A model generated the notes under the pieces. The model was not told where the DNA came from, ran no database searches, and worked only from the letters and a program-made list of their open reading frames with translations. A stretch of 64,000 bases of DNA from the NCBI RefSeq assembly GCF_021729015.1, contig NZ_JAJQQZ010000002.1, forward strand, positions 1 to 64,000. The letters are read 5' to 3'. Positions within the stretch are counted from its first letter, which is position 1. The number at the start of each line of letters is the position of its first letter. Below, in pieces: positions 10,567 to 46,090 of the stretch. This DNA comes from Halobacterium rubrum (GTDB taxonomy: Archaea > Halobacteriota > Halobacteria > Halobacteriales > Halobacteriaceae). A program made the translations under genes and the position numbers.

Positions 10567-11745
10567 ATGAGTGAGGACTTCTACGACGTGCTCGGCGTGA
10601 GTCGGGACGCCACCGAGGACGAGATCATGGAGGCGTACCGCGAGAAGGTCTCCGAGTACCACCCCGACGTCAGCGACGAGCCCGACGCCGAGGAGACGTT
10701 CAAGAAGATACAGAAGGCCAAAGACGTCCTCACCGACGAGCAGCAGCGCCAGCAGTACGACCAGCTCGGTCACGACCGCTTCCAGGAGGCCGAGAAGCGT
10801 GGCGCCACCGGCGAGTCCGGCGGCATGGGCGGCATGGGCGGCGGCGCTGGCGGGCCGTTCGGCGGCGGCGGCGGCGGCGCCGGCGCGGGCGGCGGCATGG
10901 GCGACATCTTCGACCAGTTCTTCGGCGGCGGCGGCCGCGGCGGCGGCGGCGGACAGTCCCGGCCCCAGCAGGGCCGCGACCTCCGCACCGACCTCTCGGT
11001 CACGCTCGAAGAGGCCTACGAGGGCGTCTCCAAGCAGGTGACCGTCCGGCGGCCCGAGCGCTGCACCGACTGCAACGGCAAGGGCTACCCCGAGGACGCG
11101 AACGTCCGCACGTGCCCGCAGTGCGACGGCCAGGGCGTCGTCACGCAGGTCCGACAGACCCCGCTGGGCCGCGTCCAGCAACGTCAGGAGTGCTCGCGCT
11201 GTGGCGGCGACGGCGAACTCCACTCCGAGACGTGTTCGACGTGCGGCGGCCAGGGCCAGACCCGCGAGCGCGCAACCCTCACCGTCGACGTCCCCGAGGG
11301 CATCCGCTCCGGCCAGACGCTGCGCATGGACGGTGAGGGCGCCCCCGGCGACCGCGGCGCGCCGAACGGCGACCTCCTCGTCGACGTCACGGTCGAAGAC
11401 CACCCGGACTTCGAGCGCGAGGGCGACGACCTCCACCACCGCCACGCCGTCTCCTTCCCGCAGGCCGTCTTCGGCGCCGAAATCGAAGTTCCGACGCTCG
11501 ACGGCGCCGCCTCCTTCGACCTCGACGCCGGCACCCAGAGCGGCGAGACCTTCCGCCTCAAGGGGAAGGGCATGCCCCGACTGCGGCGCCGCGGCCACGG
11601 CGACCTCTACGTCACCGTCCAGGTCGTCACCCCCGAATCCCTCAACGACGAACAGCGCGAAGCCCTCGAACAGTTCGCGGAAGCCGGCGGCGAGGAGATC
11701 GACGTCGACCAGGGCTTCTTCGAGAAACTCAAGAACTCCTTCTAG
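10567..11745 (+). CDS. dnaJ: DnaJ, Hsp40 co-chaperone
   Basis: 392 aa type I J-protein that stimulates DnaK ATPase and delivers clients. The J domain (~1-70) has the HPD tripeptide in YHPDVSDE. A Gly-rich linker with repeated GGMGG and GGGG follows (~80-145). The zinc-binding domain (~150-220) has four CxxCxGxG motifs: CTDCNGKG, CPQCDGQG, CSRCGGDG and CSTCGGQG. The C-terminal client-binding domain ends SLNDEQREALEQF. The start is the ATG at 10567 (MSEDFYDVLG); an upstream in-frame TTG is not family-like. The stop is followed at once by a repeated intergenic element. Confidence 0.97.
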   Translation: MSEDFYDVLGVSRDATEDEIMEAYREKVSEYHPDVSDEPDAEETFKKIQKAKDVLTDEQQRQQYDQLGHDRFQEAEKRGATGESGGMGGMGGGAGGPFGGGGGGAGAGGGMGDIFDQFFGGGGRGGGGGQSRPQQGRDLRTDLSVTLEEAYEGVSKQVTVRRPERCTDCNGKGYPEDANVRTCPQCDGQGVVTQVRQTPLGRVQQRQECSRCGGDGELHSETCSTCGGQGQTRERATLTVDVPEGIRSGQTLRMDGEGAPGDRGAPNGDLLVDVTVEDHPDFEREGDDLHHRHAVSFPQAVFGAEIEVPTLDGAASFDLDAGTQSGETFRLKGKGMPRLRRRGHGDLYVTVQVVTPESLNDEQREALEQFAEAGGEEIDVDQGFFEKLKNSF

Positions 11746-12002
11746 ACGTACCGTTTGTACCTTTTGCTGGGGTCGCTCGCTTCGCTCGCTCCCTGGCAAA
11801 AGCTACGCTAAAAGCACTCCTCGCTCCCTCCGGTCGCTCGTCGGCCTGCACTCGCTTCGTCGCCGGCCTACGGCCGGCTTCAAGCGGGACCTTCGGTCCC
11901 GCCCTGCTCGCGCAGTGAACCGCGTCGCTCGGGTTCTCCGAACCGCTCGCTCGCGGATGCTCGGTGTCGGTTTCTCAGTCGGGGCTGTGACGCGTCAGTT
12001 GT
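11746..12002 (+). repeat. Oriented 3' repeat element downstream of dnaJ
   Basis: The gap to the next gene is 284 nt. GTACC occurs at 11748-11752 and again at 11757-11761. Then comes an inverted repeat CTTTTGC...GCAAAAG (11761-11802), AGCTACGCTAAAAGC (11801-11815), the hairpins GCCGGCC-TAC-GGCCGGC and GCGGGACC-TTC-GGTCCCGC (11864-11901), CCTGCTCGC (11903-11911), CAGTGAACCGC (11913-11923) and CGCTCGCGGATGCTCG (11948-11963). The same blocks in the same order recur after phoU and after the PAPS-reductase-like gene. TTGTAAGC near 12000 is a likely TATA element for the next gene. Confidence 0.75.
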
Positions 12003-38180: not shown

Positions 38181-38352
38181 GAGGGAGCATCGACGCGCGA
38201 ACGTAGTGAGCGCGTCGTTCACCGAGCGCTTCGCGCTCGGGCCGACGAACCATCGAGGCCGCGCTGTGCGCGGCCGAGGTGGTGAGGAGGCTTTTTAGCG
38301 TAGCTTTTTGCCAGGGAGCGCGCCGAAGGCGCGCGACCGCAGCAAAAAGGTA
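38181..38352 (-). repeat. Oriented 3' repeat element after the PAPS-reductase-like gene
   Basis: Read on the minus strand from the stop codon: TAGTACC, CTTTTTGC...GCAAAAAGCTACGCTAAAAAGC (38290-38349), then hairpins GGCCGCGC-ACA-GCGCGGCC and CCGAGCGC-GAA-GCGCTCGG, and GTGAACGACGCG...GATGCTCC. A further hairpin GCGCGCC-TTC-GGCGCGC lies inside the first block (38317-38334). This is the same order of blocks as after dnaJ and phoU, and in the same orientation relative to the upstream gene. Confidence 0.75.
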
Positions 38353-39324
38353 CTACATGTAGCCGAGGTCGCGCAGGCGCTCCATCAGGTCTTCTTTGTC
38401 CTGGGCGCGGCCGGCGCGCTCGGTCGTGTTCTCGAGGTCCTGCAGCCATGCGGGTTCTTCGGCGGCCTTGTCCGTGGAGACCTCACTCCCGAGCGAGCGG
38501 AAGCCCTTGAAGTACTTCGGGGAGACGGGGATATCGTCGTGGGTGAGGTCGTTCGGGAGGTCGTCGAAGTCCTGGGGGACGTAGCCGTCGTCCGGGAAGT
38601 CCTCGACGGTCTCGGGGACGACGTAGTACCAGAAGGCGTCCCAGACGGCGGCCTCGTCGAACTGGAGAATCGGCTGGATGCGGTCGTGGGGCGGGTAGAC
38701 GTCGGGGTCGTGGCGCGGGCTGAAGAACGTCTCGTCGGCGCGGGCGTCCTGTTCGTCCCAGCGGATGCCCGACAGGATGCCGTCGACGTCGTGCTCCTCG
38801 AGGGCGTTGTTGAGCGCGACGGTCTTGAGGAGGTGGTTGCCGACGTAGGTGTCCAGCAGGAACGGGAAGGAGTCCTCCTCGTACTCGAGGAGGTTCTCGA
38901 TGTGGTGCTGGTTCTGGTCGTTCAGCTCGCTGATGGGGATGTCGTCGCCGGGTTCGAGGTCGTTGGCGTCGACGTAGTCGCCGACGTCCTCGTTGCGGGC
39001 GTAGACGACCTCGAGGTCCCACTCGTCGGCCCAGCGGTCGACGAAGTCGTGGAGTTCGTCGAAGTGCTGGAAGTGGTCGATGAAGATGGTCTTCGGGACT
39101 TCGAGGTCGAACTTCTCGGCGACCTCCTTCACGAAGTACAGCGTCAGCGTGGAGTCCTTGCCGCCGGTCCACATGATGGCGGGGTTGTCGTACTCTTCGA
39201 GGCCCTCACGCGTGACTTCGATGGCCTTCTCGATTTTCGCTTCGAGCGTCGGGTAGTCGGCGGGGCTCTCGCCCTCACCGTCGCTGTAGTCGACGTCGAG
39301 GTAATCGGGGAAGTCCTCGCTCAT
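38353..39324 (-). CDS. PAPS reductase / ATP-sulfurylase-small-subunit family protein
   Basis: 323 aa, start at ATG 39324 (MSEDFPDYLDVDY). The adenine nucleotide alpha-hydrolase fold has the PP-loop-like IMWTGGKDSTLTLYFVKEV (~50-68), then FIDHFQHFDELHDFV and LSGIRWDEQDARADETFFSPRHD, and the C-terminal DAFWYYV. The family (CysH/CysD-like) activates or reduces sulfate; the catalytic ECGLH Cys motif of true PAPS reductases is not seen, so the exact reaction is uncertain and thiolation chemistry is also possible. A perfect GTGGATATCCAC palindrome lies just upstream of its TATA box. Confidence 0.82.
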   Translation of the reverse strand: MSEDFPDYLDVDYSDGEGESPADYPTLEAKIEKAIEVTREGLEEYDNPAIMWTGGKDSTLTLYFVKEVAEKFDLEVPKTIFIDHFQHFDELHDFVDRWADEWDLEVVYARNEDVGDYVDANDLEPGDDIPISELNDQNQHHIENLLEYEEDSFPFLLDTYVGNHLLKTVALNNALEEHDVDGILSGIRWDEQDARADETFFSPRHDPDVYPPHDRIQPILQFDEAAVWDAFWYYVVPETVEDFPDDGYVPQDFDDLPNDLTHDDIPVSPKYFKGFRSLGSEVSTDKAAEEPAWLQDLENTTERAGRAQDKEDLMERLRDLGYM

Positions 39325-45889: not shown

Positions 45890-46022
45890 GACGTACCCCT
45901 GTCCCGTTTTTCTCGTCGAGTGCGGTCGCTACGCTCGCCAAGACGTTAAAAACCCTGCTCGCTCACTGCGTTCGCTCACAGTGAACCGCTTGCGCCGCCG
46001 GCGCTCGCGGATGCTCGACCGC
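45890..46022 (+). repeat. Oriented 3' repeat element after phoU
   Basis: GTACC at 45893-45897, a T-rich CCCGTTTTTC, GGTCGCTACGCTCGCC and ACGTTAAAAACC, then CCTGCTCGC (45954-45962), hairpin TCACTG...CAGTGA, CAGTGAACCGC (45979-45989), hairpin GCGCC-GCC-GGCGC, and CGCTCGCGGATGCTCG (46002-46017). The last 16 nt and CAGTGAACCGC are identical to blocks after dnaJ, in the same order and orientation. Confidence 0.75.
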
Positions 46023-46030
46023 GACAGCAC

Positions 46031-46090
46031 TGCATAGCACGGCACCGCTCTGCACAGCACGGCACCGCTCCGCACAGCGACGCACCGCTC
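46031..46090. repeat. Three tandem 20-bp repeats between phoU and the glutaredoxin gene
   Basis: Units at 46031-46050, 46051-46070 and 46071-46090 follow (T/C)GCA(T/C)AGC(A/G)(C/A)(G/C)GCACCGCTC with one to four differences and no spacers. The array ends 7 nt before the stop codon of the convergent glutaredoxin gene. Confidence 0.85.

Follow-up and report, generated by a model that had tools for sequence, protein, structure and literature searches.

Oriented multi-hairpin elements at gene ends of Halobacteria: candidate portable transcription terminators

The window analysed here, the whole stretch of 64,000 nucleotides at the start of contig NZ_JAJQQZ010000002.1 of Halobacterium rubrum, contains three members of a family of gene-end elements of the Halobacteria. 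The elements stand directly behind genes, on the strand of the gene upstream, with a multi-hairpin structure maintained by co-variation and at sites that are partly shared between species and families. The reading that fits best, to which we give about an even chance, is that they are portable transcription terminator cassettes, a function suggested by their position and structure. Archaeal termination is thought to need little beyond a U run, and a conserved, co-varying module of fixed orientation, found after dnaJ, phoU and a number of tRNA genes, suggests either a structured class of terminator or a repeat living off gene ends. Neither the motif letters nor an apparent earlier description was found in the literature available without subscription, and the element has apparently not been described before.

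From 5' to 3', the stop codon is followed by the leader GTACC, a run of four or five T, hairpin 1, a run of four or five A (A run 1), a spacer of approximately 8 nt, a second run of four or five A (A run 2), the hairpin or hairpins 2, the motif GTGAA, hairpin 3 and a 3' sign ATGC, often extended to ATGCTC. The base of hairpin 1 is formed by the T run, which pairs with A run 1, and by the leader, which pairs with the spacer that follows A run 1 (GTAcC / GcTAC), while one or two further hairpins are located between A run 2 and GTGAA. Among the copies from Halobacteriaceae and Halococcus that have all parts, the length of the element ranges from 118 to 336 nt, with a median of 170. Of 155 copies, 145 have a T run and two A runs of one common length (112 of type 5/5/5 and 33 of type 4/4/4), and the phoU copy of a sister species (L137) is 6/6/6 despite a hairpin inserted in its spacer. 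The equal length of the T run and A run 1 is base pairing.

The three loci reported in the first-pass annotation are real and lie where it had placed them, each directly 3' of the stop codon of dnaJ, phoU or a PAPS-reductase-domain gene; dnaJ (DnaJ, DnaJ_C and DnaJ_CXXCXGXG domains) and the PAPS-reductase-domain gene were identified by Pfam. The pattern GCTACGCTAAAA, with at most one mismatch, has two matches in the window versus 0.04 expected from dinucleotide shuffles. The copy behind dnaJ (copy A, 11748-11962, plus strand) is of the T4/A4/A4 type; the TAG stop codon of dnaJ (11743-11745, plus strand) ends 2 nt before the first GTACC of a tandem leader GTACC-GTTT-GTACC-TTTT (11748-11765), whose T run occupies positions 11762-11765. 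Its hairpin 1 (GTAcCTTTTGC...GCAAAAGcTAC, 11757-11806) has z = -3.66, with none of 200 shuffles folding as well, the core AAAAGCTACGCTAAAA (11798-11813) comprises A run 1, the 8-nt spacer and A run 2, and GTGAA, hairpin 3 (CCGC...GCGG) and ATGCTC complete the element at 11915-11962. The copy behind the PAPS-reductase-like gene (copy C, 38185-38353, minus strand) is of the T5/A5/A5 type, the G of its GTACC (38353) being the last base of the TAG stop codon (38355-38353). Hairpin 1 of this copy, up to A run 1 (38304-38353), has z = -4.69, again with no shuffle out of 200 as good, and is followed by the core AAAAAGCTACGCTAAAAA (38292-38309) and by GTGAA, hairpin 3 (CGACGCGC...GCGCGTCG) and ATGCTC (38185-38222). 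The copy behind phoU (copy B, 45893-46016, plus strand) belongs to the family in a degenerate form: it has GTACC (45893-45897), T5 (45907-45911), a single A5 tract (45948-45952), GTGAA (45981-45985), hairpin 3 (CCGC...GCGG) and ATGCTC (46011-46016), its hairpin 1 folds weakly (z = -1.09), and the GCTACGC spacer is missing.

These coordinates modify the earlier description in several respects. The T-rich inverted-repeat arm is indeed a hairpin, and more precisely a single long one in which leader GTACC and T run face A run and spacer GCTAC, with the A run repeated once more downstream. As to the terminal block, ATGCTC is common to the minus-strand copy, which ends in ...GTCGATGCTC, while GGATGCTC is absent there. 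The elements end at approximately 11962, 46016 and 38185, so that the end at 12002 given for the dnaJ copy was too far downstream.

Some copies carry additional palindromes. An extra double hairpin (CGGGAGAGC...GCTCTCCCGAGCCCTG, a hairpin, then CAGGACG) is located between CTACGC and A run 2 in one copy of the own genome (C2:190394, minus strand), in L137 and in L193, and the length of A run 2 is kept in two of these three copies. Two nested palindromic modules, in which sequence blocks alternate with hairpins, recur within hairpin 1 of L011, L014, L019, L140, L045 and L123: TCTGCTCACGG, hairpin, CCGTTCGCACGGCCAGC, hairpin, GCTCGGCTGGC; and GTTCGAAAG, hairpin, CTTTCGTGATGACGAAAG, hairpin, CTTTCGAACCAC.

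The hairpin sequences vary freely from copy to copy, with pairing maintained. Among 55 copies from the first set, the closing pair of hairpin 3, which extends between GTGAA and ATGC, is C-G in 38, T-A in 9, A-T in 5 and T-G in 3; among 18 copies from a second set ('TCTACGCT'), A-T occurs 13 times and C-G five times. Taken by itself, the fold energy of hairpin 3 is not unusual. In related species, leader and spacer change together, both at orthologous sites and elsewhere, as in GTACC/GCTACGCT, CGACC/GCTCGGCC, GAACC/GCTTCACC, CGCAC/CTTGCGG, CCCAC/CTTGGGG and TGGAC/CCTCCACT. Over 18 spacer types, leader and spacer form 3.06 pairs on average versus 2.06 after shuffling, a value reached by none of 5000 shuffles, and the inner four pairs of the hairpin 1 stem give 2.51 versus 1.96 (shuffle maximum 2.27); in these tests each spacer type was represented by a single example or each distinct sequence pair was counted once, which lessens but does not remove the effect of kinship among related species.

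The own genome (3.07 Mb in 7 contigs), whose nearest matches among the records are those of Halobacterium, with DNA identity of up to 90%, was searched for further copies. AARNTACGCTAAAA, with at most one mismatch, gave 19 matches versus one in the backward control; 13 of these were exact AAGCTACGCTAAAA, which had no exact backward match, and the other six carried one mismatch. Seven of the eight matches of GTACCTTTTT (none backward) fall inside elements. Approximately ten members, including three decayed or deleted ones, were present in 464 kb read directly, a sample chosen partly for known copies, and our guess for the whole genome is some 25-30 copies. All copy numbers are lower bounds, as exact-core searches miss sub-types. 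Exact AAAAGCTACGCTAAAA was found in 25 of 292 genomes of the class; most species of the own genus have 11-14 copies, and several Halococcus genomes have 8-10. Of 392 genomes from the order, 66 contain exact AAAAATCTACGCTAAAAAG, chiefly in two families assigned to Haloarculaceae and Natrialbaceae through record matches. Neither pattern had a backward match. Chance similarity is ruled out by these controls, which were zero in all exact searches, together with the 0.04 matches expected in the shuffled window. Related elements occur in Halobacteriaceae, Halococcus, Haloarculaceae and Natrialbaceae, with carriers including Halobacterium sp. CBA1126 and KA-4, Halococcus thailandensis and H. morrhuae, Halorientalis, Salinibaculum, Halomicrococcus and Halospeciosus, and on plasmids of Natrinema, Natronococcus and Halovenus. 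Neither exact search (AAAAGCTACGCTAAAA, AAAAATCTACGCTAAAAAG) matched any genome of one family (f4), probably the Haloferacaceae. The element thus appears to be missing on the Haloferax side, which would account for its not having shown up in the published maps of Haloferax 3' ends. Viral and phage records contained no credible copy, three matches proving on reading not to be the element, and a virus or phage origin is left without support.

In the first searches, 58 of 83 distinct copies start between -1 and +15 nt after the stop of a sense open frame, gene calls here coming from a codon-usage script and not from curated annotation. In 31 of the 58, the G of a TAG stop is at the same time the first base of the leader (TA-G-TACC). 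Only five of the 58 follow TGA, even though this is the stop used most often in the own genome (219 of 435 genes). Seven copies start at +9 to +15; a leader-like G(T/C)A(C/G)C adjoins the stop in these, followed by a mostly short or degenerate T tract, and we therefore interpret them, copy A of the window included, as tandem leaders. Twelve loci carry the element immediately after a tRNA gene or after a duplicated tRNA 3' end. Of the 83 copies, 46 have a convergent and 37 a co-directional gene downstream, so that a simple bidirectional terminator for convergent genes is not needed. A second set of 50 copies from other families (pattern AAAAATCTACGCTAAAAAG) has 42 sense and 4 antisense upstream genes; 26 copies lie no more than 20 nt from a sense stop, and no copy lies that close to an antisense gene end. 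The proposal of the first-pass annotation that this is a dispersed element tied to transcription ends is therefore strongly supported: further copies exist genome-wide, and their strand and position are far from random in an independent set as well. In Natrialbaceae, many copies are located 130-250 nt behind the stop codon, or away from stops.

At 12 sites of the own genome compared with two sister species, the corresponding gene often carries the element as well, with hairpin 1 hardly more similar there (median identity 0.60) than among unrelated copies (0.56), while the flanking coding DNA is 83-96% identical in nearly all of these comparisons. Presence differs between the sister species at many sites, and where the element is missing the stop is often TGA and the surroundings are changed. 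Two sites of exact-core copies, behind an '...RMFQ*' gene and an '...AFQ*' gene, are common to Halobacteriaceae and Halococcus; the phoU site is shared between these two groups as well, and the tRNA-Arg(TCT) site by three families. One Halococcus genome has an identical hairpin 1 (identity 1.0) at two different genes (L100/L101), which indicates that copying or gene conversion between copies occurs.

Of the three meanings first offered for the element (terminator, 3' processing signal or mobile sequence), the first fits best and is about as likely as not. The terminator reading rests on the T run behind the gene, a known haloarchaeal signal (T stretch or T5C; aCPSF1/FttA) that is otherwise uncommon here: T runs of at least four within 25 nt of the stop were found for only 17 of 192 own-genome genes followed by a gap of at least 60 nt, and a good part of these 17 are copies of the element. 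T5C terminates 95% of transcripts in Haloferax (PMC7237163), and aCPSF1 binds U4 tracts, best when there are two or more (PMC8716108). With GTACC and T4-5 directly behind a stop codon or tRNA 3' end, the nascent RNA would end in a U tract a few nucleotides past the gene. The T run also forms the 5' side of a long hairpin, behind which stand two others; these hairpins would hinder read-through or protect the 3' end, and on the opposite strand the A runs, which read U(4-5)-N8-U(4-5), could stop transcription arriving from the other side. Conservation of the site at the same genes with rapid replacement of the hairpin sequence would be expected if the T run, the A runs and the fold matter and the hairpin sequence does not. 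The majority of genes in the own genome have no copy behind them, which counts against the terminator reading. Moreover, since archaeal terminators need only a U tract, hairpins 3' of that tract, the GTGAA and ATGC signs and the match in length between A run 2 and the T run are left without an explanation. A speculative and somewhat improbable extension is that the element is a dedicated, transferable haloarchaeal 3'-end module, in which the T tract and the two equal-length A tracts form a defined multi-strand fold: the T run may pair with either A run, or one of the two DNA strands may form a triple strand. Such a fold would time termination or block both sides and make the element a terminator class unlike bare U tracts.

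The main rival, possible though in our view doubtful, is a non-autonomous mobile repeat (REP- or MITE-like) that is copied in trans and lands or survives harmlessly at gene 3' ends, its effect as terminator being incidental. Dispersal over many genomes and plasmids, variable presence between sister species and the identical hairpins of L100/L101 are what such a repeat would leave behind, the tandem leaders suggest that one copy was replaced by another, and the Natrialbaceae copies remote from stops fit a mobile repeat better than a terminator. Natrialbaceae plasmids also contain a variant of approximately 160 bp (L240-L254) with common edges, from ACTAC...TGC to CGCCTCCGCCTGTA, in non-homologous flanks; these relatives are mostly away from stop codons and are the best place to look for actual mobility. 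Placement and strand relative to stop codons are nevertheless far too regular for this rival, sites are common to different families, 11 own loci compared with two sisters revealed no precise empty site and no target duplication, and no longer copy with an internal gene was seen. No terminal inverted repeat typical of MITEs was seen in the Halobacterium copies, which begin with GTACC and end with ATGC(TC), and the edges TACAG...CTGTA of the Natrialbaceae variant are at most suggestive of one. A more specific version, a PATE or REP element derived from IS200/605 and mobilised by a Y1 (TnpA/RAYT) transposase, is very improbable: near-terminal palindromes and the lack of a visible target duplication recall the PATEs of Haloquadratum (PMC3119063), but the Y1 transposase domain PF01797 was not found in five carriers (G000, G126, G093, G245 and G038) and is present in G018, which has no exact copy. 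Mobilisation by IS200/605 or RAYT was rejected for now on the ground of the five carriers. The terminator and mobile-repeat readings are compatible, as a repeat of mobile origin could be kept where it serves as terminator.

We consider it unlikely that transcripts run through the element and that the folded RNA, as a structured 3' untranslated region acting in stability, processing or regulation, is its functional part. Co-varying stems, nearly invariant single-stranded GTGAA and ATGC and the orientation on one strand agree with such an RNA, but with four or five T at its very beginning, most transcripts would be expected to stop before the remainder is made, the element follows tRNA genes as well as mRNAs, and Rfam 15 gave no match in the window at gathering score and nothing credible at related loci.

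Several other repeats adjoin the element. An insert of approximately 70-130 nt separates tRNA genes from the element at L003, L036, L044, L050, L051, L084 and L095; it carries an inverted copy of the T arm (GGGATTCGAA...TTCGAATCCC) and terminates in a directly repeated tRNA 3' end, behind which the element stands. This insert resembles a mini-element of its own that targets tRNA genes. At L012, L015, L024, L045, L094, L109, L111-L113 and L115, the element is closely followed by another dispersed block (CGTAGGTTCAAGTA...GCGGGACCA.CCCGG.GCGTGACCTGA) that contains a TATA-like sequence; it may represent a family of small RNA genes, and Rfam gave no credible match for it. At the Halococcus loci L053, L055, L083, L084 and L096-L104, the element is followed by a conserved block (ACAGCACCGCCGAAGCCCTCG, hairpin, CTCGCCCTTCATCCGCCAGGA), which the tail of copy B (46017-46090, with ACAGCACGGCACCGC repeats) resembles.

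Like the U-tract (T-stretch) terminators of archaea, the element has a T4/T5 run on the coding strand right behind the gene end. Known T-stretch terminators are bare T runs without a conserved sequence family, whereas the T run of the element forms one side of the first hairpin, its 5' arm, in a conserved module of several hairpins that also has a fixed leader, two equal-length A runs and the GTGAA and ATGC signs. Bacterial REP/BIME repeats are imperfect palindromes present in many copies behind genes, and so is the element, which differs from them in being archaeal, strictly oriented with the upstream gene and furnished with T and A runs at its base, in carriers of which five lack Y1/RAYT. 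The PATEs, MITEs and SMRs of Haloquadratum are likewise short, non-coding, palindromic, multi-copy haloarchaeal repeats, of which the PATEs and SMRs make no target duplication, and they form strain-specific insertions, often into other mobile elements (PMC3119063). In contrast to PATEs, the gene-end element occurs in five genomes without Y1 transposase, and, unlike all three groups, it is locked sense-wise to stop codons and tRNA ends, at sites that are partly shared across families.
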